Shown here: positions 29,103 through 63,568 of the stretch, piece by piece | Layout: every line of letters begins with the position of its first letter | Position numbering within the stretch: the first letter of the stretch is position 1 | NCBI RefSeq assembly: GCF_017916365.1 | Contig: NZ_JAFMSU010000002.1 | Span: forward strand, 124,001-188,000 | Reading direction: 5' to 3' | DNA: 64,000 nt | From: Rufibacter roseolus | GTDB taxonomy: Bacteria > Bacteroidota > Bacteroidia > Cytophagales > Hymenobacteraceae | Made by a program: the position numbers and the translations under genes | The notes under the pieces: generated by a model | What the model was told of the DNA's origin: nothing | What the model saw: only the letters and a program-made list of their open reading frames with translations | The model's database searches: none

Positions 29103-32102
29103 ATGAAATGGAAATTTACGAATAGGGTACTCGCCCTGTCGGGTACTGTGGTATTGTACGCCCTCCTTCCCTGTTTGCCGCAGGAAAGTGCCTATGCTGG
29201 GGTAAGGGACCACCGGGTGGTCTCCAAGCAAGACAGATCCGTGTCTGGAACGGTGACTTCGGCGGAGGATGGCTCTCCGTTGGTTGGGGTTTCTGTCTCT
29301 CTCAAAGGCGGCACCGCGGGGGCTATGACCGATGTCAATGGCAAATACCAGATCTCGGTTCCTGGGAACGCGGTCTTGATTTTCAGTTACATAGGGTATA
29401 CTCCCCAGGAAGTATTGGTGTCTAACCAGTCCCAGTTGAATGTTCGCTTAAAGGCCGACCGCCAGGTATTGGAGGAAGTAGTGGTGATTGGTTATGGTAC
29501 CCAGAAGAAGGGTGATGTGACCAGCGCCGTGGCCGGGGTAGATCGTGAGGACTTCGTGCAGGGTGCCGTGCGTGATGCGGCCCAGTTGGTGCAGGGGAAA
29601 GTAGCTGGTCTGCGGGTAACCACCCCCAGCGGCGATCCCAATGCCACCACCCAAATCAACCTGCGGGGCATCAGCTCCATCCAGGGCAGTTCCGAGCCAT
29701 TGGTAATAATAGACGGTGTTCCCGGTGAAATTAACACTGTGGCTCCAGAGGATATTGAGTCAGTGGATGTGTTGAAAGACGGGTCAGCGGCTGCCATCTA
29801 CGGTACGCGGGCCACTGGCGGGGTAATCCTTATCACTACGCGCAAAAACCAGGGTGACCGCAGTACAGTGGAATACAACGCCTATACCAGCGTGCAGACT
29901 ATTGCCAGAAGACCTGAATTGTTGACTGGAGATGATTACCGCCGGTTGATCGCTGAGGAAGGCATTGACTATGAAGATTACGGCGGCAATACAGACTGGC
30001 TGGATGAAATCATGCAGACTCCAATCAGCCATAACCACAACCTGACCTTCTTCGGGGGAAACTCTGCCACCAACTTCACAGGCTCCCTCAACTACAGAAA
30101 CTGGGGAGGTATTATAAAAAGAACGGGGCAGGAGCGTTTTGTCGCCAGGGCTGATGTAAACCACGCTATGTTTGATGAGAAACTGAAGGCGAATATTCAG
30201 TTGATCAATACCATTGGTTCTTCTAAGCAAGGCGGTGGCGATGGTTATGCTTATCGGCAGGCGATTATCCGGAACCCTACGGACCGGGTAAGGACCGAAA
30301 CCGGTGAATGGCAGGAGCGAGATGGATACTTTTACCTCAATCCAGTGTCCAGGATAGAAGAATTCAACCGGGAGAGTACCACCCGGGAAATGAGAATGAG
30401 CGGAAGCTTGGATTATTCTCCTATTAAAGACCTGCATTTCAAAATACTAGGGTCTCATATCCAGGGGAGTTCTTTGTCTGGATATGCCTCCACGTTCAAC
30501 CACTCAGACACATGGTTGGATAACCGAAACAGCAATGCGGGCAGAAGCACGGGCGCTAGTCGGTCTAACTTGCTGGAGCTCACCTCTAATTACGCCAAAA
30601 CTTTTGGAGCCCATAGTTTCAGTGTGTTGGGTGGCTATAGCTGGCAAGATGAAACAAATGAATCGTTCTATGCTGATAACTGGAATTTTCCTACGGATGC
30701 CTACGGCTGGAACAATCTAGGGGTTGGCCAAGCAGTTCAGGCTGGTTTAGCAGGGATGGGTAGCTACAAGGAAAATTGGAAACTCATTGGCTTCTTCGGC
30801 CGCGTGACTTACGACTTCAATGACAAATACCTGTTTATGGCCAGCGTGAGACGTGAGGGTTCCTCTAAGTTTGGCGCTAACTCTAAGTGGGGTACCTTCC
30901 CGGCCGTATCGGTAGGCTGGAGAATAAGCCAGGAAGAATTCTTGAAATCCTTCGGCTTTATCTCAGACCTGAAGTTAAGAGCCGGTTACGGGGTAACTGG
31001 TACCATTGCTAACAGCGCCTATTTATCGCAGATCAGCTATAATTTTAGTCAAGCTGAAGGGGCATTTATTGGAGGAAAATGGGTGAGAGGCTTTTCCCCG
31101 GCCCGTAACTTCAACCCAGATCTGCGGTGGGAAAGAAAAGGGGAATACAACGTAGGTCTTGATTTTGGTTTCCTGAAAAACCGCATCAGTGGCTCCTTGG
31201 ATTTCTTCCGTCGGGACATTGAAGACTTACTGTACCAATTTGAGGTTCCATCACCTCCTTACCTGATTGGGTTTATGACCATCAATGCGGGTGCGTTGCG
31301 CAGCCAGGGATTTGAGGCATTGGTAAATTTTGTTCCCGTTGAAACCAAGAATTTTACCTGGAACTCCAATGTGACTTACTCAACGAACAAAACAGAGCTG
31401 GTTTCTTTGACCAATGACCAGTTTGATAATGCAATAGATTATTTTGACCAAGGTTATACCGGTGAACCCATCCAGGACTTCACCCACCGGGTAGCTGTAG
31501 GAGAGCCCATCGGCCGCTTCTATGTTTGGAAAACCGTGGGAGTGGATGCGAACGGCGGTTGGTTAGTGGAAAGCAAAACCGGCGAAGCTATTCCAATCAA
31601 TGACGCCACTCAGGAAGACCGTCAATACTACGGCAACGCCATTCCCAAGCACGTGCTAGGCTGGAACAACTCTGCCCGCTTCAAGAACTTTGACCTGACG
31701 GTAAACATCAGAGGTGCTTTTGGCCATGACATCCTCAACTTCCAGCGCATGTTCTATGAGAACCCAAAGAACCCATCTTACAACATGCTTAAGACCGCTT
31801 ATGACCCGGTTTACGGAAAACGACTCAATAACGACCTGGTGTATGTAAGTCATTACATTGAAAAGGGAGACTACGTGAAAATTGACAACGTCACCTTTGG
31901 CTATACTTTACCAAAGGACCTGATCAAGATTGTAAGGAATGCAAGAGTCTTCGTGTCTGGGCTAAATCTGGTGACCTTCACCGGCTACAAAGGATTAGAT
32001 CCGGAAGGGGTAAGCTACTCAGGATTTGCTCCTGGCAATGATGAGCGCGACAAATACCCTACCACCCGCACGTTTACGGCAGGCATTAATGTATCCTTCT
32101 AG
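29103..32102 (+). CDS. SusC/RagA family TonB-dependent outer-membrane transporter
   Basis: 999 residues. A signal peptide ends near AYAG. A carboxypeptidase-regulatory-like domain follows (VSGTVTSAEDGSPLVGVSVS to about residue 120), then VVVIGYGTQKKGDVTSAVAGV, the start of the plug, with the usual SusC sequence LRGISSIQGSSEPLVIIDGV. The C-terminal barrel ends in FTAGINVSF with the terminal Phe. It imports oligosaccharides or glycopeptides together with SusD using TonB energy. There is no STN domain, so signalling through an anti-sigma factor is not expected. SusD follows 17 bp later. Operator site 1 and a -7 box lie about 700 bp upstream. Confidence 0.95.
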   Translation: MKWKFTNRVLALSGTVVLYALLPCLPQESAYAGVRDHRVVSKQDRSVSGTVTSAEDGSPLVGVSVSLKGGTAGAMTDVNGKYQISVPGNAVLIFSYIGYTPQEVLVSNQSQLNVRLKADRQVLEEVVVIGYGTQKKGDVTSAVAGVDREDFVQGAVRDAAQLVQGKVAGLRVTTPSGDPNATTQINLRGISSIQGSSEPLVIIDGVPGEINTVAPEDIESVDVLKDGSAAAIYGTRATGGVILITTRKNQGDRSTVEYNAYTSVQTIARRPELLTGDDYRRLIAEEGIDYEDYGGNTDWLDEIMQTPISHNHNLTFFGGNSATNFTGSLNYRNWGGIIKRTGQERFVARADVNHAMFDEKLKANIQLINTIGSSKQGGGDGYAYRQAIIRNPTDRVRTETGEWQERDGYFYLNPVSRIEEFNRESTTREMRMSGSLDYSPIKDLHFKILGSHIQGSSLSGYASTFNHSDTWLDNRNSNAGRSTGASRSNLLELTSNYAKTFGAHSFSVLGGYSWQDETNESFYADNWNFPTDAYGWNNLGVGQAVQAGLAGMGSYKENWKLIGFFGRVTYDFNDKYLFMASVRREGSSKFGANSKWGTFPAVSVGWRISQEEFLKSFGFISDLKLRAGYGVTGTIANSAYLSQISYNFSQAEGAFIGGKWVRGFSPARNFNPDLRWERKGEYNVGLDFGFLKNRISGSLDFFRRDIEDLLYQFEVPSPPYLIGFMTINAGALRSQGFEALVNFVPVETKNFTWNSNVTYSTNKTELVSLTNDQFDNAIDYFDQGYTGEPIQDFTHRVAVGEPIGRFYVWKTVGVDANGGWLVESKTGEAIPINDATQEDRQYYGNAIPKHVLGWNNSARFKNFDLTVNIRGAFGHDILNFQRMFYENPKNPSYNMLKTAYDPVYGKRLNNDLVYVSHYIEKGDYVKIDNVTFGYTLPKDLIKIVRNARVFVSGLNLVTFTGYKGLDPEGVSYSGFAPGNDERDKYPTTRTFTAGINVSF

Positions 32103-32119
32103 GTTTTAAGAGCACAATC

Positions 32120-33712
32120 ATGAAAAAGAGATTAATAGTATATACCCTGGCTACCACCTTAGGGGCAGTAGGCGCTATCAGTTCCTGTACCAACCTGGAT
32201 GAAGAGGTTTACTCAGAGGTTTTGGCTTCCAGTTTTAAGCCCACTGAAAAAGACATCCCAGCCATCATCGCGCCAGTGTATGCCTCTTTTAGGGGGTTAA
32301 TGATGGGCTGGCAAGGATACTTTGATTTGCAGGAAGAAAGCGCAGATGCCATTGCCACACCGGCTCGTCCTAACGGCTGGTATGACGGTGGTACCTACCT
32401 CAGGATGCACACCCACACCTGGACCCCGCTGCAATGGCAACCCCAGAATACCTGGTTAAGCTCTTACCGGAGCATCACCCAAGCCAACCGCGTACTGGCG
32501 CAGATTGAGGCCGGGCAGATAGCCATGGAAAGTGGGAAAGAAGCGTTGGTGGCAGAACTAAGAGCCGCTCGGGCATTTGCCTATTACCTGTTATTGGATA
32601 ACCATGGAAATATACCCATAGTGACCGATTTTAATAACACCGAGTTGCCCGAACAGAAATCCCGCCAGCAGGTATACGAATTCGTGGAAAAGGAGCTTTT
32701 GGAAGTAGTGGACCTCTTGAGCGACGATCCTAAAGCCACCTATGGCCAGTTGAACAAGTGGGGAGTGAAAGCCTTGCTGGCAAAGATTTATCTTAATGCC
32801 GGGGTGTACACCGGCACGACACAGTGGGAAAAATGTATCCAGCAGGCCGATGAAATTATCAGTAGCCAGAAGTACTCCTTGGATCCCAACTACTCAGATG
32901 TCTTCACCTACACGAACCAGAATTCACCAGAGATCATCTTTGCCATTCCATATGACCAAATTTACGGTCAGGGAAATATTGTCCATATGAAAACGCTGGA
33001 CCCTGCCAGTAGATTCGTGTACAAAATGCAGGCTGGCCCTTGGGGAGGCAACGCCGCCGTACCGCAGTTCATAGACACCTATGATGCGCAGGATGGCCGC
33101 CTGAAAGACACCTGGATCATGGGACCACAGAAAAATGCGACCACTGGCGCTATCGCCATTGATTATGTGAAATTGATGCCTAGCATGGCTGCCACCGAGT
33201 CAAACGAGGGCTACCGCATTGGGAAGTATAAAATCAAGGAAGGAGCCACCGGAGCCCTGGACAATGACTTCCCTATGCTGCGCTACGCCGATGTGCTCAT
33301 GATGAAGGCAGAAAGCCTGCTGCGCATGGGCCGCGCCGATGAAGCAGCCGTGTTAGTGACCCAAGTGCGCCAGCGCGCTTTCCGGGATACCAATCCAGCA
33401 AAAGCTACTGTGACCGGCGATGACCTGAAGCAGGGCAGTACCTATGAGTACGGTCTTCAGGATGAGAACGGCAACGTGCTTTCTGGCCCCGGAAGCGGTG
33501 GTGCCGATATCCAGTTCGGGAGAATGTTGGATGAGCTAGGATGGGAGTTTGCGGCAGAGGCGCACCGCAGACAAGATTTGATCCGTTTCGGGGTATTTGG
33601 CACAAAAGCCTGGTTTAACCATAGCCCAAGCAGCCCTAGCAAAGCCCTGTTCCCCATCCCCGCCGAAGAGATCAATAAGAACCCTAAACTGGCCCAAAAC
33701 CCTGGATATTAA
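32120..33712 (+). CDS. SusD/RagB family surface glycan/glycopeptide-binding lipoprotein
   Basis: 530 residues. The lipobox ISSC places the Cys near residue 23. The TPR-like helical scaffold is visible in ELRAARAFAYYLLLDNHGNIPIVTDF (about 148-175), VKALLAKIYLNAGVYTG, and the C-terminal ADVLMMKAESLLRMGRADEAAVLVTQVRQRAF; the sequence WEFAAEAHRRQDLIRFG is the conserved end segment of the family. It forms the lid on the SusC transporter. Its ligand is not readable from the sequence; the downstream genes suggest arabinosylated or galactosylated Pro/Hyp-rich glycopeptides. Confidence 0.95.
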   Translation: MKKRLIVYTLATTLGAVGAISSCTNLDEEVYSEVLASSFKPTEKDIPAIIAPVYASFRGLMMGWQGYFDLQEESADAIATPARPNGWYDGGTYLRMHTHTWTPLQWQPQNTWLSSYRSITQANRVLAQIEAGQIAMESGKEALVAELRAARAFAYYLLLDNHGNIPIVTDFNNTELPEQKSRQQVYEFVEKELLEVVDLLSDDPKATYGQLNKWGVKALLAKIYLNAGVYTGTTQWEKCIQQADEIISSQKYSLDPNYSDVFTYTNQNSPEIIFAIPYDQIYGQGNIVHMKTLDPASRFVYKMQAGPWGGNAAVPQFIDTYDAQDGRLKDTWIMGPQKNATTGAIAIDYVKLMPSMAATESNEGYRIGKYKIKEGATGALDNDFPMLRYADVLMMKAESLLRMGRADEAAVLVTQVRQRAFRDTNPAKATVTGDDLKQGSTYEYGLQDENGNVLSGPGSGGADIQFGRMLDELGWEFAAEAHRRQDLIRFGVFGTKAWFNHSPSSPSKALFPIPAEEINKNPKLAQNPGY

Positions 33713-33817
33713 AGCGTAATTGGTTTGTTTGTTGAGGAACTGCTCATTTAAACCTTCTGGAAACAGGGGTGAGGATGGGCAGTTTTCTTTTCCTCTCCTC
33801 CCGTTTAATAAGCCGCT

Positions 33818-33853
33818 GTTAACATAGTATTACCATTGGCTAACATGCTGAAG
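33818..33853. promoter_or_regulatory. shared operator site 2, upstream of the GH127 genes
   Basis: GTTAACATAGTAT at 33818 and GCTAACATGCTGAAG at 33839, 21 bases apart. It lies about 230 bp before the GH127 remnant and is one of the two best copies. Confidence 0.65.
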
Positions 33854-33907
33854 CTTCTTTTAAGGTTTATAATGTTTATTGCATTAGAAGAAGATTTGAG
33901 GAGCGAT

Positions 33908-33946
33908 GCGTTTTAAGCGCGTTTTTCTGAAAAAAGGCCCAAAACT
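33908..33946. repeat. dispersed intergenic palindrome
   Basis: GCGTTTTAAGCGCGTTTTTC is followed by GAAAAAAGGCCCAAAACT. This is a degenerate copy of the family. Confidence 0.5.
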
Positions 33947-34086
33947 ATCCTTCAGATATAAGAAAGTGCCCTGACCCGCACACCCAAAGTCAGTCATTCC
34001 AGCAGGCGGTAAATCCTTTTTTGTACTAGCGATTGCCCTCAACGATTTCAGTATCATCAAGTAAGACCCCAACTTTATGAGCGAAA

Positions 34087-34468
34087 TGAAAAAATGGTCT
34101 ATTCTGCCTATACTCTTGGTAGTTTGATCTCCCTCAATCCCGCGCAGGCCCAATCCTATGTTCCGGAGTGGAACAACACCAAGATGCAGGTCAAGCCGGT
34201 GGTTGGCATTAAGGCTTACGCGTTCAACCTGCAGGACGTGAAACTCTTGGAAAGTCCTTTCAAGGAGGCCATGAACGCAGACGCCGATTACCTCCTGAAG
34301 GTTGAGCCTGACCGCTTGCTGTCTGATTTCCGGGCTCACGCCGGTCTCAAACCAAAGACGGCTAAGTACGGCGGCTGGGAGTCCTCGGGCCTGGCCGGGC
34401 ATAGTTTGGGGCATTACCTCTATGCATGCGCCATGCAGTATGCGGTGTTTATGCGCTGTTTTTTGTAA
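34087..34468 (+). pseudogene. GH127 beta-L-arabinofuranosidase remnant, frameshifted and truncated
   Basis: An ATG at 34087 starts a signal peptide (MKKWSILPILLVV) that hits TGA at 34126. The downstream part continues in another frame (open from 34094) as ISLNPAQAQSYVPEWNN and then VKAYAFNLQDVKLLESPF, KVEPDRLLSDFRAHAGL and YGGWESSGLAGHSLGHYLYA, which is the N-terminal region of DUF1680/GH127 proteins. About 110 residues remain of an expected 650-800. The frame then runs into unrelated codons and stops 12 bp before the intact GH127 gene. A deletion between two neighbouring GH127 genes would explain it. Confidence 0.8.
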
Positions 34469-34480: not shown

Positions 34481-36451
34481 ATGAAGAAAAACCTACTTAG
34501 TCTACTGGCCATTTGCCTCGTACAGACGGGGGCGTTCGCGCAGGGCGGCATCAGGAACATCGCGCCAGTGAACTTCTCCCAAGTCACCATCAACGATGCC
34601 TTCTGGAAGCCCCGCATTGACCAGGTGGCCACCGTCACCATTCCGGTCTGTATTGAGCAAACCGAGGTGAAAACGCCCCGCATTCAGAACTTCGAGATCA
34701 TGGCGGGCCTGAAGAAAGGTGAGTTCAAGGGCATTTTCTACGATGACTCCGATGTTTACAAAGCCCTGGAGGCGATTGCCTATTCCATCAAAAACAAACC
34801 TTCCCCGGAGCTGGAGAAGAAGGCCGATCAGTGGATTGACCTCATCGCCAAGGCCCAGCAGCCCGACGGTTATCTGAATACCTACTACACGCTCCAGTTC
34901 CCCGAGAAGCGCTGGACCGACATGAGCATGCACGAGGATTACAACGGCGGGCACCTCATAGAGGCGGCCGTGGCGTACTATGAGGCCACCGGCAAGCGCA
35001 AGCTCCTGGACGTGGCCACCAAATTCGCCGATCATTTCGCCTCGCTTTTCGGGCCGGGCAAGCATCATTGGGTGACCGGGCACCAGGAACTGGAGCTGGC
35101 TTTGGTGAAGCTGTACAAAACCACCAAAAACAAAAAGTACCTGGACCTGGCCGATTGGCTTCTGGAGGAGCGCGGCCGTAAATTGGCCAAAGGCTACACT
35201 TGGACCGATTGGAAAGACACTGCCTACGCCCAGGATGTCATGCCTGTGAAACTGCAGAAGGAAATCACGGGCCACGCCGTGCGCGCCATGTACATGTACA
35301 CCGGCGCCGCAGATGTAGCCGCCCTGAAGGGCGATGAAGCCTACATGGGCGCCATGAAAAACGTGTGGGAAGACGTGGTCTACCGTAACATGTACATCAC
35401 CGGTGGCATCGGTTCCTCGGGCCGCAACGAAGGCTTCTCCAAAGACTATGACCTCCCCAACGAGCACGCGTACTGCGAAACCTGCGCCTCGGTGGGCATG
35501 GTGTTCTGGAACCAGCGCATGAGCTCCATGACCGGCGACAGCAAGTACGTAGACGTGCTGGAGCGCAGCCTCTACAATGGCGCTTTGGATGGTTTGTCGC
35601 TGAGCGGCGACCGGTTCTTCTATGGGAATCCCCTGGCCTCCCGGGGGCAGCACCAACGCAGCGAGTGGTTCGGGACGGCCTGCTGTCCGGCCAATATCTC
35701 CCGCCTCATCGCCTCGCTGGGCAATTACGTCTATGCGCAGTCCGACAACGGGGTGTGGGTGAACCTGTACATCGGGAGCCAGACCAACCTTAATACCCCC
35801 AACGGGAACCTGCCGCTGGAGATGAAAACCAATTACCCCTGGGAGGGCAAAGTGGATCTTACGGTGAATCCGGCCAAAGCCACCAATGCCACGTTGCACC
35901 TGCGCATTCCGGGTTGGGTACAGGGTGAGCCCGTACCCGGCGATCTGTATCGTTTCTCTGACAAAACCCCCTCAAAATTCACGGTGAAGCTCAACGGGAA
36001 AGCCATCCCCTACAAAATGGAGCGGGGCTACGCCGTCATCGACCGGAAGTGGAAAAAAGGAGACCGCCTGGAGTTGGACTTCCCCATGGAGGTAAAAAAG
36101 GTAGTGGCCAAAGACAGCCTGACTAACAACCAGGACAGGATCGCGCTGCAACGCGGGCCGCTGGTGTACTGCGTGGAAGGCGTGGACAACGGCCAGGAAG
36201 CCTGGAACATGGTGGTGCCCGAGGATACCCGTTTTAAGGCTACTTTCAACCAACAGCTCCTAAACGGCGTGGTGGCCCTGAAGGCCGAAGTACCAGTCAT
36301 TTCCGTAAGTGCCGATGGTTTGTCCACCGTTACCCAAAGAAAAACCATCACCGCCATCCCGTACTATTCCTGGGCCAACCGCGGCAAAAGCCCCATGCAG
36401 GTCTGGCTGCCCACCAGGATCAACGGCATCATGTTGAATTATACCCAGTGA
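34481..36451 (+). CDS. GH127 beta-L-arabinofuranosidase (HypBA1-like)
   Basis: 656 residues with a signal peptide ending AFAQ. The (alpha/alpha)6 barrel carries the GH127 residues known from Bifidobacterium HypBA1: Glu333 and Cys335 (CETCAS) and the pair Cys401-Cys402 (TACCPANISR) as zinc ligands and nucleophile. Glu317, 16 residues before the zinc-binding Glu, matches the acid/base position. C-terminal beta domains follow (HLRIPGW, then LQRGPLVYCVEGVD). The family removes beta-1,2-linked L-arabinofuranose from arabinosides on hydroxyproline. That fits the hydroxyproline catabolic operon only 5 kb downstream. Preceded by a GH127 remnant; followed by M1 and S9 peptidases on the same strand. 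Confidence 0.92.
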   Translation: MKKNLLSLLAICLVQTGAFAQGGIRNIAPVNFSQVTINDAFWKPRIDQVATVTIPVCIEQTEVKTPRIQNFEIMAGLKKGEFKGIFYDDSDVYKALEAIAYSIKNKPSPELEKKADQWIDLIAKAQQPDGYLNTYYTLQFPEKRWTDMSMHEDYNGGHLIEAAVAYYEATGKRKLLDVATKFADHFASLFGPGKHHWVTGHQELELALVKLYKTTKNKKYLDLADWLLEERGRKLAKGYTWTDWKDTAYAQDVMPVKLQKEITGHAVRAMYMYTGAADVAALKGDEAYMGAMKNVWEDVVYRNMYITGGIGSSGRNEGFSKDYDLPNEHAYCETCASVGMVFWNQRMSSMTGDSKYVDVLERSLYNGALDGLSLSGDRFFYGNPLASRGQHQRSEWFGTACCPANISRLIASLGNYVYAQSDNGVWVNLYIGSQTNLNTPNGNLPLEMKTNYPWEGKVDLTVNPAKATNATLHLRIPGWVQGEPVPGDLYRFSDKTPSKFTVKLNGKAIPYKMERGYAVIDRKWKKGDRLELDFPMEVKKVVAKDSLTNNQDRIALQRGPLVYCVEGVDNGQEAWNMVVPEDTRFKATFNQQLLNGVVALKAEVPVISVSADGLSTVTQRKTITAIPYYSWANRGKSPMQVWLPTRINGIMLNYTQ

Positions 36452-36533
36452 TAAAAGGTAGCTGCACGCTGGCTCAGGCGAATGCTTTTAGTTATTACTG
36501 AGCTTGTGTGTACATCTGTATTTTGCTTTACCT

Positions 36534-36569
36534 GTTTTGGGTCTGTTTTCTGAAAATCGGCCCTCAAAC
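36534..36569. repeat. dispersed intergenic palindrome
   Basis: GTTTTGGGTCTGTTTTC and GAAAATCGGCCCTCAAAC form the two halves, between GH127 and the M1 peptidase gene. Confidence 0.55.
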
Positions 36570-36585
36570 ACTTTATCAATTTTGT

Positions 36586-38250
36586 ATGAATCTTATATCA
36601 CTTAGCGTGAGAACCAGGTTTTTGTCGGTCATCTTTCTGTTGCTGTGGGGGACCGCCGCGCAGGCCCAGACCAAAACGTTTACCCGGCAGGACACTCTGC
36701 GGGGAAGTATCACCCCGGAGCGGGCCTGGTGGGATCTGGCGTATTATCACCTCAACGTGAAGGTGAACCCCGCGGACAGCACCATCAAAGGCATGAACGC
36801 CATCACCTACAAAGTCCTCACGCCCAACCAGCGCCTGCAGGTGGATTTGCAGCCGCCCATGCAGATTGAGAAAGTAACGCAGAGCGGGAAAGAACTCACC
36901 TTCACCCGCGACGGGAACGCCTGGTTTGTGCAGCTGGATCAGAAACAGACGAAGGACGCGGTGAACACCGTGGAGGTGTATTACGGCGGCAAACCGGTGG
37001 TGAGCAAGAATCCACCGTGGAGCGGCGGCATCACCTGGAAGAAAGACGCCAACGGCCAACCCTTCGTGGCGAACTCCAACCAGGGCGATGGTGCCAGTCT
37101 GTGGTGGCCCTGCAAAGACCACATGTATGATGAACCCGACAGCATGCAGATCAGCGTCACCGTGCCGGAGAACCTGATGGATGTCTCCAACGGGAAACTC
37201 CGGGGCATGACCCAGAATAATGACGGCACCAGAACCTTCCACTGGTTTGTGGCCAATCCCATCAACAACTACGGCGTGAACCTGAGCATCGGGGATTACG
37301 TGCACTTCTCTGAGAAATACAAGGGTGAGAAAGGCCTGCTGGATCTTGACTATTATGTCTTGAAAGAGAACCTGGAGAAAGCCAAAGTGCAGTTCAAAGA
37401 CGCTCCCCGAATGCTCAAGGCATTTGAGCACTGGTTCGGGCCGTACCCGTTCTATGAAGACGGTTTCAAACTGATTGAGGTGCCTTACACCGGCATGGAA
37501 CACCAGAGCGCCGTCACTTATGGCAATGGCTACAAAAACGGCTACCGGGGTAAAGATCCCAGCGGTTCCACCGGTTGGGGCATGAAGTTCGATTTCATTA
37601 TCATCCATGAATCGGGGCACGAGTGGTTCGCCAACAACATCACCTACAAAGACATCGCGGACATGTGGATTCACGAGAGTTTCACGAATTACTCTGAGAA
37701 CCTGTTTGTGGAATATTATTACGGGAAGAAAGCTGGCAGCGAGTACGTGATCGGGACCCGGGCCGGCATCGGGAACAAGCAGCCTATCATTGGCGAATAC
37801 CACGTGAACCACAAAGGCTCCGGCGACATGTACCCCAAAGGCGGCAACATGCTGCACACGCTTCGGCAGGTGGTGAATGATGATGCCAAATGGCGCAACA
37901 TCCTGCGGGGCCTGAACAAAGAATTCTACCACCAGACCGTCACCACGCAGCAGATTGAGAACTACCTGAGCAAGAAAGTAGGCCGTGACCTCACACCTTT
38001 CTTCAACCAGTACCTCCGTGACATCCGGATTCCCAAACTGGAGTACCAACTCGCCGGCAACACCCTCAAGTACCGCTGGAGCCACACCGTCGCCGGGTTC
38101 AACCTGCCCGTGAAAGTGTACCTAAACGGCAAGGAGAAATGGCTGGAGCCGGTGACCACCTGGAAAGAACTCAGCGGCATGAAACCCGGCACGGAGCTTA
38201 CCCTGGACCCTAATTTCTACGTGGAGTCCTCCCGCAAGGAAAGTATCTAG
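36586..38250 (+). CDS. M1 family aminopeptidase, secreted
   Basis: 554 residues from the ATG at 36586, which begins a signal peptide ending TAAQAQ; the longer open frame upstream is not needed. The gluzincin zinc site is HESGHEWF (His341, Glu342, His345) with the third ligand Glu364 19 residues later (IHESFTNY). The exopeptidase motif is GMEHQSAVTYGNGY, a variant of GAMEN. A short C-terminal domain replaces the long helical domain of APN. It removes N-terminal residues from peptides in the periplasm. It lies between a GH127 and an S9 peptidase, in keeping with glycopeptide breakdown. Confidence 0.9.
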   Translation: MNLISLSVRTRFLSVIFLLLWGTAAQAQTKTFTRQDTLRGSITPERAWWDLAYYHLNVKVNPADSTIKGMNAITYKVLTPNQRLQVDLQPPMQIEKVTQSGKELTFTRDGNAWFVQLDQKQTKDAVNTVEVYYGGKPVVSKNPPWSGGITWKKDANGQPFVANSNQGDGASLWWPCKDHMYDEPDSMQISVTVPENLMDVSNGKLRGMTQNNDGTRTFHWFVANPINNYGVNLSIGDYVHFSEKYKGEKGLLDLDYYVLKENLEKAKVQFKDAPRMLKAFEHWFGPYPFYEDGFKLIEVPYTGMEHQSAVTYGNGYKNGYRGKDPSGSTGWGMKFDFIIIHESGHEWFANNITYKDIADMWIHESFTNYSENLFVEYYYGKKAGSEYVIGTRAGIGNKQPIIGEYHVNHKGSGDMYPKGGNMLHTLRQVVNDDAKWRNILRGLNKEFYHQTVTTQQIENYLSKKVGRDLTPFFNQYLRDIRIPKLEYQLAGNTLKYRWSHTVAGFNLPVKVYLNGKEKWLEPVTTWKELSGMKPGTELTLDPNFYVESSRKESI

Positions 38251-38266
38251 GTTGTTCGGTAGGTCT

Positions 38267-38302
38267 GCTAATATGGTATCAGGACGTGCTAATATGCTGA
38301 AC
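38267..38302. promoter_or_regulatory. shared operator site 3, upstream of the S9 peptidase
   Basis: GCTAATATGGTAT at 38267 and GCTAATATGCTGAAC at 38288, 21 bases apart. It ends 57 bp before the S9 start codon. Confidence 0.65.
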
Positions 38303-41703: not shown

Positions 41704-41738
41704 AATTGATAAATCGGTACAAGCAGTCCAATTGATAA
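41704..41738. promoter_or_regulatory. direct repeat AATTGATAA in the AraC/hydroxyproline operon gap
   Basis: AATTGATAA occurs at 41704-41712 and 41730-41738 (period 26). A partial ACTAACATA lies just before the first copy (41696), resembling the half-site of the shared operator. A candidate AraC binding region, 53 bp before the -7 box. Confidence 0.4.
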
Positions 41739-41790
41739 TCTTGTATCACCAATGGGTAAAATGTAGGAATTCCCTTCAAACCCGATAGGG

Positions 41791-41798
41791 TAGTTTTG
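41791..41798 (+). promoter_or_regulatory. -7 box TAGTTTTG of the hydroxyproline operon
   Basis: An exact TAnnTTTG match 63 bases before the ATG at 41862. A clear TTG -33 element is missing, as expected for an activator-dependent promoter. Confidence 0.55.
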
Positions 41799-41861
41799 TT
41801 AAGCTCTTATACAGGTTTAGAAATCATAAAATCAAATACAGTAACATTAAAAAAGCACGCC

Positions 41862-46710: not shown

Positions 46711-48483
<1,773 letters not shown>

Positions 48484-48567: not shown

Positions 48568-48643
48568 AAGGTTTGTCTAATCCAGCCACTTGGAGACTCA
48601 TCTAAAATACACGATACTGCAGATGAATCATCATCAACCATCT

Positions 48644-52942: not shown

Positions 52943-56471
<3,529 letters not shown>

Positions 56472-56578: not shown

Positions 56579-56622
56579 GTGCCCGAGTATCAGCGTGAGC
56601 GTTTCCGGTGATACTCGGGCAC
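56579..56622 (+). promoter_or_regulatory. 14-bp hairpin close upstream of the M24 peptidase start
   Basis: GTGCCCGAGTATCA (56579-56592) pairs exactly with TGATACTCGGGCAC (56609-56622) around a 16-base loop; the ATG at 56641 is 18 bases later. It may be the terminator of GH2 (no T-run) or a leader structure of the M24 gene. Confidence 0.55.
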
Positions 56623-56640
56623 CTGACAAGAGATAAAAGT

Positions 56641-58026
56641 ATGTTCAACAAAGAAACGTATGTAAGCCGGAGAGAACGGCTGAAAAAGCAGGTAGGAAGC
56701 GGGTTGATTGTGCTGCTGGGCAACGAGCAGAGCAGCATGAACTACAAAGACAACTGGTACCCTTTCCGACAGGACAGCACCTTCCTGTACTTCTTCGGGA
56801 TTGACCGGGCCGGGCTGGTGGCGGTGATAGAAGTAGAGGACGATGCCGAGGTGATCTTCGGGGATGAACTGACGCCGGATGACATTGTCTGGATGGGGCC
56901 GCAGAAATCAATCCAGGACCAGGCCAGCGAAGTAGGGGTTTTCGCGACCAATCCACTATCCTCGCTGGAATTCTATTTCCGGGAAGCTTTAGCGAAAAAG
57001 CGAGAAATCCATTTTCTACCCCCTTACCGTCCGGAGAACCTGCTGAAGTTAAGTTCCTGGCTGCAAACCTCACCGGCTTCCATCAAGTCCATGGTTTCGG
57101 TGCCGTTGATCAAAGCCATCGTGGCGCAGCGGTCCATTAAGACTCAGGAAGAGGTGGTGGAAATTGAGAAAGGCATCAACACCACCGGCGAGATGCTGAA
57201 AACGGCCGCCCTCCTAGCCCGAGCCGGGATGACGGAGGCCGAGCTGGCGGGACAACTGCAGGCCATTGCTATTAAGGACGGCGGAAACCTGGCCTTCCCT
57301 ACCATCCTGACGGTAAACGGCCAGATTCTGCATAACCATTACAGCCCCACCCAACTGCGGGAAGGGCAACTGGTGCTGGTAGACTGCGGCGCGGCCTCGG
57401 CCATGCATTACTCTGGCGACATGACCCGTACATTCCCAGTGAACCAGACTTTCTCCAGCCAGCAAAAGGAAATGTTTGACGTAGTACTGACCGCCTATGA
57501 ACAAGTCGTTGCCAGGCTGAAACCCGGTGTGTTATACAAAGATGTGCATCTGCAGGCCTGCGCTTCTTTGGTAGACGGACTCAAGCAATTCGGCCTCATG
57601 AAAGGCGACACGCAGGAGGCAGTAGCCCAAGGTGCGCACGCCTTGTTCTTCCCCTGCGGGCTGGGCCACATGCTGGGCCTGGACACTCATGACATGGAAG
57701 ACCTGGGCGAGGAATACGTGGGCTACGCCGAGGACCAGCAAAAGAGCACCCAATTCGGGTTGAAGTCCCTGCGGCTGGCCCGCGCCCTGGAGCCCGGTTT
57801 TGTATTGACGGTGGAACCCGGCCTCTACTTCAACCCTGATCTAATTGATCTGTGGGCGGGGGAGAAGATGCACACAGACTTCATTAATTATGACAAGGTT
57901 GCGGGCTACAAAGACTTCGGTGGCATCAGAATTGAAGAGGATTTTCTGATCACCCCTGAGGGAAGCAGGCTGCTGGGAAATCCAGTCTCAAGGAATATGG
58001 AGGAATTAAGAAGTTCAGGGGGGTAA
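56641..58026 (+). CDS. M24B Xaa-Pro aminopeptidase (aminopeptidase P)
   Basis: 461 residues from the ATG at 56641; the longer frame starts inside the hairpin. An N-terminal AMP-N domain (SRRERLKKQVGSGLIVLLGNEQ, FLYFFGIDRAG) is followed by the pita-bread fold. The metal ligands are in VLVDCGAAS (Asp), SGDMTRTFP (Asp), GLGHMLGLDTHD (His), LTVEPGLYF (Glu) and GGIRIEEDF (Glu). No signal peptide, so it acts in the cytoplasm. It removes the first residue before Pro, finishing imported Pro/Hyp peptides. It lies between GH2 and GH127. Confidence 0.92.
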   Translation: MFNKETYVSRRERLKKQVGSGLIVLLGNEQSSMNYKDNWYPFRQDSTFLYFFGIDRAGLVAVIEVEDDAEVIFGDELTPDDIVWMGPQKSIQDQASEVGVFATNPLSSLEFYFREALAKKREIHFLPPYRPENLLKLSSWLQTSPASIKSMVSVPLIKAIVAQRSIKTQEEVVEIEKGINTTGEMLKTAALLARAGMTEAELAGQLQAIAIKDGGNLAFPTILTVNGQILHNHYSPTQLREGQLVLVDCGAASAMHYSGDMTRTFPVNQTFSSQQKEMFDVVLTAYEQVVARLKPGVLYKDVHLQACASLVDGLKQFGLMKGDTQEAVAQGAHALFFPCGLGHMLGLDTHDMEDLGEEYVGYAEDQQKSTQFGLKSLRLARALEPGFVLTVEPGLYFNPDLIDLWAGEKMHTDFINYDKVAGYKDFGGIRIEEDFLITPEGSRLLGNPVSRNMEELRSSGG

Positions 58027-58200: not shown

Positions 58201-58219
58201 TTCAGCATTTTGCTCAACT

Positions 58220-58256: not shown

Positions 58257-58295
58257 AGTCTGGAGGTATTTGGCGGAGGTCGATGTTATCACCAT

Positions 58296-58331
58296 GTTAA
58301 TATGGTGGAAGCATCGGCTAATATCCGGTCA
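58296..58331. promoter_or_regulatory. shared operator site 4, upstream of the second GH127
   Basis: GTTAATATGGTGG at 58296 and GCTAATATCCGGTCA at 58317, again 21 bases apart, 127 bp before the start codon. Confidence 0.6.
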
Positions 58332-58458
58332 GGGGAAGTGGTTGGGGAAATCTAAATTTGGTTAGATGAAAGGTGTCTTTGAGACACGATTTCCTGCTGG
58401 CAGACCTGTTCCGGTTTTCCATTCTTCCCCAGTATCCAGAGCCTTAACGTTTGACCCA

Positions 58459-60864
58459 ATGTCCTTAACCAGATTCATGGCCGTTGCCCTCACCGGGTTG
58501 GTGGTTCTCGCAAAACCCGTGTTGGCGCAGCATCAGCACAATGACTATCCCATCCAGCCGGTGCCGTTCACGCACGTGCATGTGCACGATGAGTTCTGGG
58601 CGCCAAAGATGCTGGTCAACGCCACGGTGACCATTCCGCATACGCTGGAGAAAAGCCGGGAGCAGGGCCGCATCGACAATTTCCTGAGGGCCGCAGGAAA
58701 GCTGGAAGGCGATAAACTCAGCCAGTTCACCTTCGATGATACCGATATCTACAAAGTCATCGAGGGGGCGTCTTACGCCATGCAGGTGCAGAAAAACCCC
58801 AAGCTGGACGCCTACGTGGATTCCCTCATCACCATCATCGGGGATGCGCAGGAGCCCGATGGGTACCTCTTTACTTTCCGGACAGTGAAGGCGGCAAAGC
58901 CCCATGAGTGGATCGGGAGTAAGCGCTGGGAGAAGGAGGAGGAACTCAGCCATGAGCTGTACAACTCGGGGCACTTGTTTGAGGCGGCGGTGGCGCATTA
59001 CCAGGCCACCGGGAAGAAAACGCTGCTGAACATCGCCTTGAAGAATGCCGATTTGCTGGTAAAGGACTTTGGGTACGGCAAAGAGGAAAAGTACCCGGGT
59101 CACCAGGTGGTGGAGATCGGATTGGCGAGACTGTATAGAATCACGGGCAAGAAAGAGTACCTGGACCTGGCCAAGTTCTTCCTGGACGTGCGCGGGCCCA
59201 AAGGAACCGAGTACAACCAGGCGCACGCCCGGGTGGTGGACCAGCAGGAAGCGGTGGGCCACGCCGTACGGGCCACCTACATGTACACCGCCATGGCCGA
59301 TATCGCGGCGCTCACCGGCGACAAAAGCTACCTGAAAGCCATTGACGCCATCTGGAACGATGTGGTAAACAAAAAGCTGTACATCACCGGCGGCATCGGG
59401 GCGACCGGAGCCGGGGAGGCCTTTGGGAAGGCGTATGATCTGCCCAACATGTCGGCTTACGCCGAGACCTGCGCCTCCATCGCCAACGTGTACTGGAACA
59501 ACCGCATGTTCCTGCTGCACGGTGACGCCAAATACATTGACGTGCTGGAAAGAACGCTGTACAATGGGCTGCTGTCCGGCATTTCCCTTACCGGGAACCG
59601 CTTTTTTTATCCTAATCCGTTAGCCTCCATGGGGCAGCACCAGCGGGGCGAGTGGTTCAGCTGCGCCTGCTGCATCTCCAACATGACGCGGTTCCTGCCC
59701 TCGGTGCCGGGCTACGTGTACGCGCAGAACAACAATGACCTGTACGTGAACCTGTTCATGACCAGTGCCAGCGACATCAGCCTGCCCGCGGGCCAGGTGA
59801 AAGTGAAACAAACCACCAATTACCCCTGGAACGGCACCGTGGACCTGGAGGTAGACCCGCAGAAAAACAAGGGCTTCACCCTTAGGGTGAGGATTCCAGG
59901 ATGGGCGCAGCAACAGCCAGTGCCCGGTGACTTGTACACCTTCGCCGATGCCACCAGGAAGCCCATTGTCTTGAAGGTGAACGGAAAACCCATCCAATAC
60001 AGCACCGAGAAAGGCTATGCCGTTTTGAAGCGGAAATGGAAAAAAGGGGACAAAATCACGCTGGACCTGCCCATGGAAACCGAGAAAGTGCTGGCGAACA
60101 AAAACGTGAAAGACGACCTCGGGAAGTTCTCTTTCCAGCGCGGTCCTTTGGTGTACTGCTTGGAAGGTCCCGATAACAAAGACAACCTGGTGCACAACAT
60201 TCTAGTGGACAAAAACGCCCCCGTGGAGGAGGCCTTCGAGGCGAGTCTGCTGAAGGGTGTGCCGGTGATCAAAACCAACGGGGTAGGTACCAAACGGCAG
60301 GCTAACACTACTGCCCTGTTGCGAACCGAGCAGGCAGTAAAAGCCATTCCGTATTTCTCCTGGGCGAACCGCGGCTCGGTAGACATGACGGTGTGGGTAC
60401 CCTATGAGGCATCGGCCGCCAAGCCGCAACCGGCTCCTACCATCGCGTCCACCAGCAAGATCTCGGCCTCCCTTAAGAACGCCAGAACTTTAGCCGCTTT
60501 GGTAGACCAATATGATCCGCAGGATTCCCGCGACTCCAACTACCCGTACCTGCACTGGTGGCCGAATAAAAACACCAAAGAGTTTGTGCAGCTGGATTTT
60601 GACGGGGAGCATACCGTGTCTGAGTCGCAGGTGTACTGGTTCGATGACAGCCCATGGGGCGGTTGCACCATCCCGGCCTCTTACCAGATCTTCTACAAGC
60701 AAGGCGACAAGTGGCTTCCGGTGAAAAACACCACTGCCTATGAGGTTTCCAAGGACAAGTACAATATGGTCAAATTCGCTCCGGTGAAAACCACCGCCCT
60801 CCGGATGGAAATCCAATTGCCCAAGGAAGCCGCGACCGGTATCCATGAATGGGCAGTGAAGTAA
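58459..60864 (+). CDS. GH127 beta-L-arabinofuranosidase with C-terminal discoidin/CBM-like domain
   Basis: 801 residues from the ATG at 58459, which begins the signal peptide ending PVLAQ; the open frame upstream is longer but has no signal. Residues of about 25-650 are the GH127 unit: Glu336 and Cys338 in YAETCAS, the pair Cys404-Cys405 in SCACCISN, and the acid/base Glu 16 residues before Glu336 (GEAFGKAYD). The last 120 residues (QLDFDGEHTVSESQVYWFDD, IPASYQIFYKQGDKWLPV, TALRMEIQLP) form an F5/8-type-C-like sandwich, probably carbohydrate-binding. It is well diverged from the other GH127, so a different arabinoside is likely. Operator site 4 precedes it. Confidence 0.9.
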   Translation: MSLTRFMAVALTGLVVLAKPVLAQHQHNDYPIQPVPFTHVHVHDEFWAPKMLVNATVTIPHTLEKSREQGRIDNFLRAAGKLEGDKLSQFTFDDTDIYKVIEGASYAMQVQKNPKLDAYVDSLITIIGDAQEPDGYLFTFRTVKAAKPHEWIGSKRWEKEEELSHELYNSGHLFEAAVAHYQATGKKTLLNIALKNADLLVKDFGYGKEEKYPGHQVVEIGLARLYRITGKKEYLDLAKFFLDVRGPKGTEYNQAHARVVDQQEAVGHAVRATYMYTAMADIAALTGDKSYLKAIDAIWNDVVNKKLYITGGIGATGAGEAFGKAYDLPNMSAYAETCASIANVYWNNRMFLLHGDAKYIDVLERTLYNGLLSGISLTGNRFFYPNPLASMGQHQRGEWFSCACCISNMTRFLPSVPGYVYAQNNNDLYVNLFMTSASDISLPAGQVKVKQTTNYPWNGTVDLEVDPQKNKGFTLRVRIPGWAQQQPVPGDLYTFADATRKPIVLKVNGKPIQYSTEKGYAVLKRKWKKGDKITLDLPMETEKVLANKNVKDDLGKFSFQRGPLVYCLEGPDNKDNLVHNILVDKNAPVEEAFEASLLKGVPVIKTNGVGTKRQANTTALLRTEQAVKAIPYFSWANRGSVDMTVWVPYEASAAKPQPAPTIASTSKISASLKNARTLAALVDQYDPQDSRDSNYPYLHWWPNKNTKEFVQLDFDGEHTVSESQVYWFDDSPWGGCTIPASYQIFYKQGDKWLPVKNTTAYEVSKDKYNMVKFAPVKTTALRMEIQLPKEAATGIHEWAVK

Positions 60865-60879
60865 TTCGTTCACTTTATT

Positions 60880-60922
60880 CTGACTTGGGAAACTCAAAAA
60901 GATTTTGAGTTTCCCAAGTCAG
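60880..60922 (+). terminator. perfect 20-bp terminator hairpin after GH127
   Basis: Arms 60880-60899 and 60903-60922 are exact complements with a 3-base loop, and the left arm ends in AAAA. A weaker copy of the dispersed palindrome (60922-60958) follows directly. Confidence 0.75.
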
Positions 60923-61000
60923 GTTTAGGGTTCCTTTCCTAAAAACAAGCCCTAATCCTACACCTCTTTCCGCCATGAATTCTAAAAGACAGTTTTGCGT

Positions 61001-63568
61001 ATGAACGCTAGAGTTGGAACCCTTCTTCTTTGGTTCGCTTCGTTTTCGGTCTGTTTTGGTCAGAGGCAGGCTTCCATCTCTATTGATGCCCAGAAGCGTG
61101 AAAAGAAGGTGTCGCCTACCCTGCACGGGATCTTCTTTGAGGAAATCAGCCACGGGGGCGAGGGCGGTCTGTACGGCGAGCTGATCCAGAACCGAGGGTT
61201 TGAGGAAGTCCGCATCCCGAAAGGCACCACCCTGCAGAACGGGTTCCTGGTCCCTAATCCGGCGCCGCACTACAACCTGCCCAACGGACAGGCCAGCGAC
61301 TGGAAAATGCCCTGGGCCTTGAAATCGGATTGGCCGGCCTGGTCGGCCCAGACCAGCGGGGGAGCCACCGTGACGCTGGCCTTAACGCAGGAAAAGCCCC
61401 TGAATGAAGCCACGCCCAACTCGCTGAAGATAACGGTTTCCGGTCTGGAGAAATCGGGCCAAGCCAGTCTGGTCAATGAAGGGTTCTGGGGCATCAAGGT
61501 GGACCAGGGCAAAGCCTACAAGCTCAATTTCTATGCCCGCTCTGAGAAGAAATACAAGGGGCCGCTGACCGTGGCGCTGCAGAGCGAAGACGGGAAAATC
61601 CTGGCCAGCCACGTGTTCAATAACCCGCTCAAAGCCGGAGACTGGCAAAAGCTTAGTTGCGATCTGGTTGTGAAAGCTTCTGACCCGAAAGCCAAATTCG
61701 TTATCAGCTTTGGAAGTACGGGTACGCTGTTTCTGGACTTTGTTTCGCTTTTTCCAGCTGAGACCTTCAAGAACCGGGAGAACGGCTTGCGTCCTGATTT
61801 GGCGCAGTATCTGGCTGATCTAAAGCCTTCCTTCATCCGGTGGCCGGGTGGTTGCTTTGTGGAAGGCATCACTGTGGAGAGTGCACCTAACTGGAAACAG
61901 AGCATCGGGCCGGTGGAGAAAAGACCGGGCACCTTCAGCCCGTGGGGCTACTGGTCCAGCGACGGCCTGGGGTACCATGAGTTCCTGCAGTTCTGCGAAG
62001 ACACCGGCGCCGGTGCCATGTACGTCTTCAATGCCGGCGTGGCCTGCGAGTTCAGGAGCGGCACCTTCCTGCCCGATGCCCAACTGCCCGTGGTGATAGC
62101 CGATGTGCTGGACGCCATTGAGTACGCCGTAGGCCCTGCTGATTCTAAATGGGGGAAAGTAAGAGTTGCCAACGGGCACCCGGCGCCTTTCCCGCTGAAA
62201 TACGTGGAGGTGGGAAACGAGCAGCACGGTCCCTGGTACGCCAACCGGTTCAACCTTTTCTACGACGCAATCAAAGCCAAATACCCGGACCTGAAGGTGA
62301 TTGCCAGCATGGGCATTGCGGATGTGAACCGGCATACCCTGGACGGGATGAAAAAGCTGGACATCGCCGATGAGCACGCCTACAAATCGGCGTACTGGGC
62401 CATGAACAACTACGACCACTTTGACAAATACAAACGGGGCGATTGGGAACTGTACGTGGGTGAATACGCCACCAATGCCGGGGTAGGGAGCGGGAACATG
62501 CTCGCAGCGCTCAATGACGCAGTGTACATCCTGGCCATGGAGCGCAACGGCGACCTGGTGACCATGTCCAGCTACGCCCCGCTGCTGGTAAACACCAACG
62601 ATGTGGACTGGCCGGTGAACCTGATCAACTTCAACAACTCGCAGAGTTTCGCGCGGATCTCCTACTACGCCATCCAGATGTTGAACAAGCACCGCGCGGA
62701 TCAGAACCTGGCCACCACGGTTCAGGTACAGCCCGCCCAGATAACCAAGCCGGCTTTCGCCGGGGGCATCGGCTTGAGTACCTGGGATACCCAAACGGAG
62801 TACAAAGACATCCAGGTCATCCAAAAGGGCAAAGTGGTCTACAGCAGCAATTTTGAGAAAGCCGAGGGCGAATGGGAAAAGGTGCGGGGCACCTGGGGCG
62901 TGAAGGAAGGCGCCATGGGCCAAACCGCTGAGGGAGCACAGCTTTTCGCGATGCTCAAAGACAAGTCTTATGACACCTACACCCTCAAACTGAAAGGTCG
63001 AAAACTTAGCGGGTACAATGCATTCATCATCCCGTTTGCGGTGAAGGATGGGGGCAAAACGCAGGTGCGGGCGCACATAGGCTCTTACTGGAACCAGTAC
63101 GGCGTCTTCGAGCAGGTCACCGAAGGCACGGAAGTGGCGAACTTATCATCCTCCACCAAACTGCCGGAGAATATAGAAACCGGCAAGTGGTACGATATCC
63201 GGCTGGAGGTGGGCCTCAATAAAGTGGACTGCTACCTGAACGACCAATTCCTCATGAGTTACACCATCCCGGATATGTTCTACAGTATCTCGGGGGTAGA
63301 CGAAAAAACCGGCGACATCATCGTGAAAGTGGTGAACGGCTCCCCGGAAACCTTCCAGACCAACCTCAACCTGAAAGGCGCCACAAACTTATCTCCGGTT
63401 GGGGAGGTGGTAACCTTATCGGCAGAGAACTACCAGGCGGAGAATTCCTTTGAGACTCCTACAAAGTATGTTCCCCAGACTTCCAGATTAACTAATGTCA
63501 CCTCCTCCTTTAAGGTGGGCGTGAAGCCGTATTCTATCTCGGTTTACCGGCTCAAGACAAAGAAGTGA
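61001..63568 (+). CDS. GH51 alpha-L-arabinofuranosidase, secreted
   Basis: 855 residues from the ATG at 61001; an in-frame TTG lies 6 bases before it. The signal peptide ends SVCFGQ. LHGIFFEEISHGGEGGLYGELIQNR is the family's N-terminal strand, then an inserted CBM4/9-like sandwich (about 85-250), then the barrel: FIRWPGGCFVEG, KYVEVGNEQHGPWY with acid/base Glu407, YVGEYATNAG with nucleophile Glu488. A further LamG/jelly-roll-like region is inserted near 600-740 before the C-terminal domain. It removes alpha-1,2/1,3/1,5-linked arabinofuranose, including the terminal alpha-1,3 residue of extensin tetra-arabinosides. CAGTTTTG (one mismatch to TAnnTTTG) lies just upstream. Confidence 0.93.
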   Translation: MNARVGTLLLWFASFSVCFGQRQASISIDAQKREKKVSPTLHGIFFEEISHGGEGGLYGELIQNRGFEEVRIPKGTTLQNGFLVPNPAPHYNLPNGQASDWKMPWALKSDWPAWSAQTSGGATVTLALTQEKPLNEATPNSLKITVSGLEKSGQASLVNEGFWGIKVDQGKAYKLNFYARSEKKYKGPLTVALQSEDGKILASHVFNNPLKAGDWQKLSCDLVVKASDPKAKFVISFGSTGTLFLDFVSLFPAETFKNRENGLRPDLAQYLADLKPSFIRWPGGCFVEGITVESAPNWKQSIGPVEKRPGTFSPWGYWSSDGLGYHEFLQFCEDTGAGAMYVFNAGVACEFRSGTFLPDAQLPVVIADVLDAIEYAVGPADSKWGKVRVANGHPAPFPLKYVEVGNEQHGPWYANRFNLFYDAIKAKYPDLKVIASMGIADVNRHTLDGMKKLDIADEHAYKSAYWAMNNYDHFDKYKRGDWELYVGEYATNAGVGSGNMLAALNDAVYILAMERNGDLVTMSSYAPLLVNTNDVDWPVNLINFNNSQSFARISYYAIQMLNKHRADQNLATTVQVQPAQITKPAFAGGIGLSTWDTQTEYKDIQVIQKGKVVYSSNFEKAEGEWEKVRGTWGVKEGAMGQTAEGAQLFAMLKDKSYDTYTLKLKGRKLSGYNAFIIPFAVKDGGKTQVRAHIGSYWNQYGVFEQVTEGTEVANLSSSTKLPENIETGKWYDIRLEVGLNKVDCYLNDQFLMSYTIPDMFYSISGVDEKTGDIIVKVVNGSPETFQTNLNLKGATNLSPVGEVVTLSAENYQAENSFETPTKYVPQTSRLTNVTSSFKVGVKPYSISVYRLKTKK

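Follow-up and report, generated by a model that had tools for sequence, protein, structure and literature searches.

A 64-kb stretch of DNA (the window; contig 2, positions 124001-188000, in a genome of 5.5 Mb) carries a run of 17 genes, spanning 29103-63568, in which glycosidases, peptidases and enzymes for the catabolism of hydroxyproline (Hyp) stand together. We propose, with a probability of about 0.72, that this locus works as a single regulon serving growth on Hyp-arabinosylated plant glycoproteins, most likely of the extensin type, because the linkage of its genes is conserved, GH127 glycosidase genes share operons with the Hyp genes, and its units share a direct repeat with a spacing of 21 bp. 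An earlier note on this DNA had suggested one system that joins sugar removal, cutting of the Pro/Hyp peptide and Hyp catabolism, and the linkage in three families, the joint operons and the shared operator-like sites all support this suggestion. Bacterial breakdown of plant Hyp-rich wall glycoproteins, that is, extensins and arabinogalactan proteins (AGPs), was little known as of 2015, according to the available part of PMC4454575.

All 17 genes were assigned to families by Pfam and NCBIfam profile searches, and every gene named in the earlier note was recovered at its position. The adjoining SusC and SusD genes, with glycoside hydrolase (GH) genes linked to the pair, are hallmarks of a polysaccharide utilization locus (PUL). 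The start of the locus is placed at the operator-like site near 28358. The features are as follows, with G and L numbers as our handles for compared genomes and sequence stretches.

28358..28391, +, 21-bp direct-repeat site, 711 bp 5' of SusC (matrix score 15.3, outside the training set; counterpart before SusC in G003, G004, G011, G017, G022 and G521)
29103..32102, +, SusC/RagA TonB-linked outer membrane protein (TIGR04056, 748.5 bits)
32120..33712, +, SusD-family lipoprotein (PF07980, PF14322)
33816..33849, +, operator-like site 5' of the GH146 remnant and GH127a (training site)
34077..34447, +, what is left of a broken GH146 beta-L-arabinofuranosidase gene, about 124 N-terminal codons out of 799 (tblastn against whole sibling genes)
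34481..36451, +, GH127a, beta-L-arabinofuranosidase-like, signal-peptide-like N-terminus (Pfam and active-site motifs)
36508..38250, +, M1-family metallopeptidase (Pfam, HExxH motif)
38265..38298, +, operator-like site 5' of S9a (training site)
38360..40672, +, S9a, with DPPIV_N and Peptidase_S9 domains (Pfam), without the Glu motif of dipeptidyl peptidase IV (DPP IV)
40743..41651, -, AraC-family regulator, divergent from the Hyp operon (profile match)
41732..41765, +, operator-like site in the gap between the AraC gene and the Hyp operon (held-out site with a score of 20.5)
41796..42794, +, DHDPS-fold enzyme, probable HypD-like deaminase, likelier start 41862 (Pfam; function by operon context)
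42900..44363, +, aldehyde dehydrogenase (ALDH), probable 2-oxoglutarate semialdehyde dehydrogenase (profile match; function by operon context)
44370..45371, +, 4-hydroxyproline 2-epimerase HypE (NF010578, 599.8 bits, cut-off 376)
45373..46620, +, FAD oxidoreductase (DAO), probable D-Hyp dehydrogenase (profile match; function by operon context)
46711..48483, +, DUF885 protein, putative peptidase (Pfam)
48590..50857, +, S9b, DPP IV-like (Pfam; DWAYEEEF motif)
50958..52733, +, GH97, retaining alpha-galactosidase-like (profile match and alignment with solved enzymes)
53286..56471, +, GH2 LacZ-type beta-galactosidase (beta_gal_Bga2A, 1053.5 bits, cut-off 999), not found in the sibling G002 locus
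56608..58026, +, M24 aminopeptidase P-like, apparently without a signal peptide, likelier start 56641 (profile match)
58294..58327, +, operator-like site 5' of GH127b (training site)
58366..60864, +, GH127b (Pfam and motifs); its C-terminus has a weak F5/8-type match, below the Pfam cut-off
60995..63568, +, GH51 alpha-L-arabinofuranosidase-like (Pfam)

The linkage was examined first within the genus. HypE was found in six of 16 genomes, and the same six have GH127a (93-100% identity) and GH127b in one conserved locus, whose gene order is identical in all six apart from differences in single genes. The ten genomes without HypE have neither GH127a nor GH127b, and one of them, G009, has a single distant GH127 (39%). 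In the Pontibacter genus, the loci of G017, G022, G026 and G521 hold the Hyp genes with S9a, S9b and M1 in other orders, and all of these except G026 also hold SusCD and a GH127. In G521 (L166-L167), a second SusCD pair, ThuA/DUF7133, MFS, GFO/IDH/MocA and sugar-isomerase-like genes and several operator-like sites lie between the GH127 and Hyp parts.

The comparison was extended to three families, which we take to be Hymenobacteraceae, Sphingobacteriaceae and Spirosomaceae. HypE (E up to 1e-60) occurs in 31 of 204, 115 of 251 and 146 of 200 of their genomes, respectively, and in 22 of 295 genomes of a class-wide draw. When GH127b was used as a query (E up to 1e-80) in 140 HypE-positive genomes (31 of 31 Hymenobacteraceae, 49 of 115 Sphingobacteriaceae and 60 of 146 Spirosomaceae), 46 of the 166 GH127 matches were no more than 35 kb from HypE; about 2 would be expected from nominal genome sizes, with relatedness and contig breaks ignored. 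The linked fractions were 23/29 in Hymenobacteraceae (0.39 expected), 13/54 in Sphingobacteriaceae (0.73) and 10/83 in Spirosomaceae (0.88). Linkage also followed the score: 25 of 38 matches of at least 900 bits were linked, 18 of 52 at 600-900 bits, 2 of 23 at 400-600 bits, and 1 of 53 in the class below 400 bits, which served as the internal control. The class of at least 900 bits was present in 23 of 80 HypE-positive and in 0 of 64 HypE-negative genomes of Hymenobacteraceae and Sphingobacteriaceae, uncorrected for relatedness. Among 80 named HypE loci, ranked by HypE identity and covering up to 10 kb per side, many of them ended by the contig, 12 had a GH127 of at least 48% identity and four had a match at 24-27%, a kind that proved to be GH146 in L103, L105 and L112; L076, with a match over 8% of the query, was left out of the count.

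These results bear on the possibility that the Hyp operon and the glycosidases are neighbours by chance in this strain. The locus is present in only six of the 16 genus genomes, as any island might be, but its order is conserved in all six and it is rearranged yet still linked in other genera and in three families. Chance neighbourhood, which we regard as hardly credible, is ruled out by this comparison as far as sequence allows; the search for the same gene set in related genomes, which the earlier note had proposed, thus found a recurrent linkage.

In addition to being neighbours, the two functions share gene runs. A glycosidase lies in the same run as HypE (gaps of at most 200 bases) in 17 of 37 loci compared, a figure that is not a rate, most of these loci having been chosen for being linked; G480 gave no HypE open reading frame (ORF). 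The run GH127-GH27-DHDPS-ALDH-HypE-DAO was seen in G296, G616 and L111, GH127-DHDPS-ALDH-HypE-DAO in G372, G583 and G610, and DAO-GH127b in G387, G403 and G479; in several Sphingobacteriaceae, GH127 heads the Hyp operon itself. All six genomes of the own genus have the run DAO-DUF885-S9b-GH97. A GH27 alpha-galactosidase is found in the G208, G296, G616, G632 and L111 loci, four of the five belonging to the genus of a Mucilaginibacter metagenome-assembled genome, and it would fill in those relatives the role predicted for GH97 here. The 40 GH127 proteins of the compared loci form three groups and one single.

The units of the locus are further tied together by a repeat. Alignment of upstream regions from the six genus genomes revealed a block common to S9a and GH127b, and the gap between SusD and GH127a has the same block. 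Its form, GYTAAYAT-N13-GYTAAYAT, has three exact sites in the window. With up to two mismatches, 3 sites were found against 0.27 expected, a number reached in 0 of 100 shuffles; with three mismatches, 7 sites were found against 2.5 expected, reached in 1 of 100 shuffles. Among half-site spacings of 15-44, enrichment was seen at 21 only (18 sites versus 0-5 elsewhere).

A weight matrix was trained on 18 sites, three from each of the six genomes. In 800 kb of the own genome as background (798,680 positions), two positions reach a score of 14 and none reaches 15. Sites held out of training score 14.5-24.9 upstream of the Hyp operon in every one of 10 loci, six from the own genus and four from the Pontibacter genus, and 15.3-29.9 at 288-865 bases before SusC in all seven loci covering that region (G002, G012 and G026 left out; G026 has only a SusD piece). 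The operator-like sites were inherited from common ancestors and are therefore not independent, and sites scoring at least 14 also occur inside genes three times (G022, G026 and G521). A relaxed form of the repeat, sought in 13 more loci (L111 and 12 from Sphingobacteriaceae), is again enriched at a spacing of 21 only, in 15 of 28 upstream regions versus at most 4 at any other spacing of 14-35. The AraC protein encoded at 40743 probably binds the repeat, because of the position of its gene and the type of repeat. The matrix was also run on the window and on the stretches L156, L157, L195 and L196; a held-out score of 20.7 was found before a lone LamG-GH127-type gene on contig 2 at about 1449496 (L196:5496-8744), next to a DUF5695 protein, and this gene is possibly a distant member of the regulon. 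Neither the shared repeat sites nor the GH146 remnant had been described in the earlier note.

The active-site residues named in the earlier note were recovered. In an alignment of GH127a with HypBA1 (3wkw), the Glu, Glu-x-Cys and Cys-Cys positions are all in register, and the same motifs were found in GH127b; we take the aligned Glu to be the acid/base and the Glu/Cys/Cys-Cys set to bind Zn. The closest solved structures are 4qjy for GH127a (560 bits) and 6ex6 for GH127b (743.5 bits), presumably Ara127N and BT3674, respectively. Both proteins are classed as beta-L-arabinofuranosidase-like, with an activity on arabinofuranose (Araf) attached to Hyp predicted from the family. The top NCBIfam name for both, aceric acid hydrolase of the BT1003 type (NF049879), was rejected, with scores of 465.8 and 479.5 bits against a cut-off of 950. 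For GH97, the Asp of KVDFM (presumably the nucleophile) and the Glu of YEGV (presumably the acid/base) line up with those of the alpha-galactosidase structures 3a24 and 5e1q, except that 5e1q differs at the Asp position; the protein falls short of the NCBIfam equivalog cut-off (643.9 bits versus 800). Of the two S9 peptidases, S9b has the DPP IV Glu-pair motif DWAYEEEF and G-x-S-x-G, and the Glu motif was not found in S9a.

The earlier note had also claimed a full Hyp catabolic operon. The right families for all four steps do stand in one gene run, and HypE, which keeps both catalytic-type Cys residues (MCGHG and SPCGTG), is firmly assigned. The roles of DAO, the DHDPS-fold enzyme and ALDH are probable from operon context; ALDH has the motifs GQFC and AEMG, and sequence comparison does not fix the exact substrates of the DHDPS-fold deaminase and ALDH.

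Taken together, these assignments suggest a route. SusCD would take up glycopeptides; signal-peptide-like N-termini were seen by eye in the glycosidases, S9a, S9b, M1 and DUF885, and none was seen in M24 or the Hyp enzymes. In the periplasm, GH51 would remove terminal alpha-Araf, GH127a and GH127b, originally with GH146, would strip beta-Araf as far as Hyp, and Ser-linked alpha-galactose would be released by GH97 or, in relatives, by GH27, each step being predicted from the family. The bare Pro/Hyp peptide would be trimmed by the S9, M1 and DUF885 enzymes and by M24, which is probably cytoplasmic. Free Hyp would then be converted to 2-oxoglutarate by HypE, DAO, the DHDPS-fold deaminase and ALDH, and the AraC-type regulator, acting on the 21-bp-spaced direct repeat, would switch the units together.

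The GH146 gene has decayed in this strain. Codons 1-14 and 14-124 of the sibling gene match 34077-34447 in different frames in tblastn, the main piece at 85-90% identity, and the remaining codons were not found in the gap between SusD and GH127a. The gene is whole in siblings G002, G003 and G012, and GH146 occurs in 15 of the 37 loci. The protein of the relatives matches 5opj (512 bits), which we take to be BT0349. The locus of this strain is therefore not the fullest form of the gene set. In the available text of PMC10850190, the GH146 enzymes Bll4HypBA1 and XeHypBA1 are reported to cleave Araf-beta-Hyp, and that of PMC6085000 reports cleavage of Ara-Hyp by the GH127 enzyme HypBA1 likewise; therefore, the strain may still finish sugar removal with GH127.

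With respect to the substrate, the earlier note had named extensin/AGP, a target that is putative, as the assignments rest on family and GH127 includes other activities. According to the parts of the literature available, the family also includes an AGP-active enzyme and an aceric acid hydrolase (PMC10850190), as well as anhydrogalactosidases. The same joint regulon might be aimed mainly at AGP or at an algal Hyp-rich glycoprotein, as the GH2 beta-galactosidase in the locus would suggest. However, GH2 is absent from the G002 locus, GH146, a family in which cleavage of Araf-Hyp has been shown for some members, is present in 15/37 loci, and no galactanase family was found in the locus or among the 27 gene clusters recurring in at least four of the 37 loci (two clusters without a Pfam match; rarer genes mostly unscanned). 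Because no galactanase recurs in the compared loci, extensin fits better than AGP, and we consider a main target of the AGP or algal kind unlikely.

Several findings weigh against an extensin-directed regulon. In the enzyme set, GH146 is broken here, G004 keeps a match of ~45 codons (44-53%) and the G011 locus has none; GH51 was not found in the examined stretch of G012, and in G011 the match is limited to its first 77 residues; ALDH was not found in 40 kb around HypE of G017; and no GH121 or GH43, which mark the Bifidobacterium and Xanthomonas systems, is among the 17 genes. BT3674, presumably the best solved relative of GH127b, belongs here too. It acts on larch arabinogalactan, according to the available text of PMC10850190. 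For uptake, the 17 genes include no inner-membrane transporter for Hyp or peptides, and a genome search found no SNF symporter. In the wider comparison, the operator is weak or missing in the genus labelled g6, with a score of at least 14 at only one of its four loci. GH127 proteins of the 600-900-bit class are present in 12 of 64 HypE-negative genomes, and none of the 25 Spirosomaceae cases of this class is linked. No GH127 match was found in 17 of 31 HypE-positive Hymenobacteraceae, or in 32 of the 80 HypE-positive genomes of the first two families.

The frequent occurrence of HypE without GH127 would also be expected if mixed Pro/Hyp peptides or collagen were the target of the Hyp operon and peptidases, with the glycosidases forming a separate arabinan/galactan PUL that shares only the site and the operator. 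In G082 and G097, HypE has M1/DUF885 neighbours and no GH127 match, and an arabinan-type cluster lies elsewhere in this genome. Conversely, GH127 is inside the Hyp gene run in several genera, the operator-like repeat is common to GH127b, S9a and the Hyp operon, and the distant GH127 class is unlinked (1/53). Two separate systems are thus quite improbable, and a joint regulon for Hyp-arabinosylated glycoproteins is preferred. The fragment of GH51 in G011 (L047, 2747-2977) is perhaps a second decaying glycosidase of the locus.

The arabinan-type cluster, on contig 3 (L195:1861-19981), contains araA for L-arabinose isomerase, FGGY kinase, aldose epimerase, an SSF transporter, two GH43, GH51, GH97 and, beside araA, a GH146-like protein with PF07944/DUF6805 domains; use of L-arabinose by the strain is therefore possible. 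Among related loci, an APC permease occurs in 7 of 37 and the SNF symporter in 5 of 37, including siblings G002 and G012, and neither is in this locus. The "complete" use claimed by the earlier note is too strong, because only a GH146 remnant is left and the locus has no inner-membrane transporter; moreover, SNF is missing from the genome search and araA is on another contig.

Around the locus, the six ORFs scanned in the downstream stretch L156 (redoxin, PALP, TPR, AI-2E transporter, carbohydrate phosphorylase and MFS) include none of the locus families. Just upstream lies a gene for a MauG-like di-haem protein (26351-28141), which is kept in G004 and not in the examined stretches of G003 and G011. 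The window also holds, outside the locus, a GH39-family gene (14333-16072), a PAS/GAF sensor histidine kinase of 1907 aa (18685-24408), and a 917-aa protein (4163-6916) in which stretches of D-Ala-D-Ala ligase domains recur (two N-terminal, three C-terminal).

With moderate confidence, we suggest that the locus represents a widespread, unrecognised class in Bacteroidota, where one AraC-controlled regulon would combine deglycosylation with Pro/Hyp proteolysis and amino-acid catabolism, and the protein backbone would be consumed to 2-oxoglutarate along with the sugar. Its operator would be recognisable in Hymenobacteraceae and Sphingobacteriaceae, GH97 and GH27 would be exchanged for each other, and three GH127 groups would be linked to it. 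If so, genes for the breakdown of Hyp-glycoproteins can be named and their switch and its site predicted, HypE beside GH127 becomes a marker for finding such bacteria, and the PUL idea is broadened beyond glycans to cover an entire glycoprotein and the amino acid that characterises it.

Among known systems, the arabinogalactan PULs of Bacteroides thetaiotaomicron are, as we understand them, likewise SusCD-based, with BT3674 presumably a GH127 of the same group as the locus enzyme, and we know of no Hyp operon in them. The BT3674 system differs in its target, arabinogalactan, and in working with galactanases, according to the available text of PMC10850190. The HypBA1/HypBA2/HypAA system of Bifidobacterium longum resembles the locus in a GH127 aimed at Araf on Hyp-rich glycoproteins and in a step of alpha-Araf removal; its cluster, as described in the parts of PMC6085000 and PMC7263609 available, has GH121, GH43 and an ABC transporter, whereas SusCD, GH51, GH97, peptidases and Hyp catabolism are found here. 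Xanthomonas euvesicatoria XeHypAA/XeHypBA2/XeHypBA1 shares the removal of Hyp-arabinosides and a putative prolyl oligopeptidase gene beside xehypAA (PMC6085000), but uses GH43 and GH121 (PMC6085000) and GH146 (PMC10850190), and its peptidase gene is described as broken, all from the accessible portions; the text of PMC6085000 contains no word starting with "catabol". In Latescibacteria single-cell genomes, GH127 and AGP enzymes were likewise proposed for Hyp-rich glycoproteins, as a gene inventory, with no linked locus or regulon described in the available part of PMC4454575.

In the open-access literature searched, as far as its available text goes, no publication joining GH127 or GH146 with a Hyp operon was found. 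The bacterial 4-Hyp catabolic operon comprises an epimerase, a D-Hyp dehydrogenase, a deaminase and an alpha-ketoglutaric semialdehyde (KGSA) dehydrogenase, and to our knowledge it is not known inside a PUL elsewhere. The locus resembles this operon in having families for all four steps in one run, and differs from it in that an operator-like site is shared with the glycosidases.

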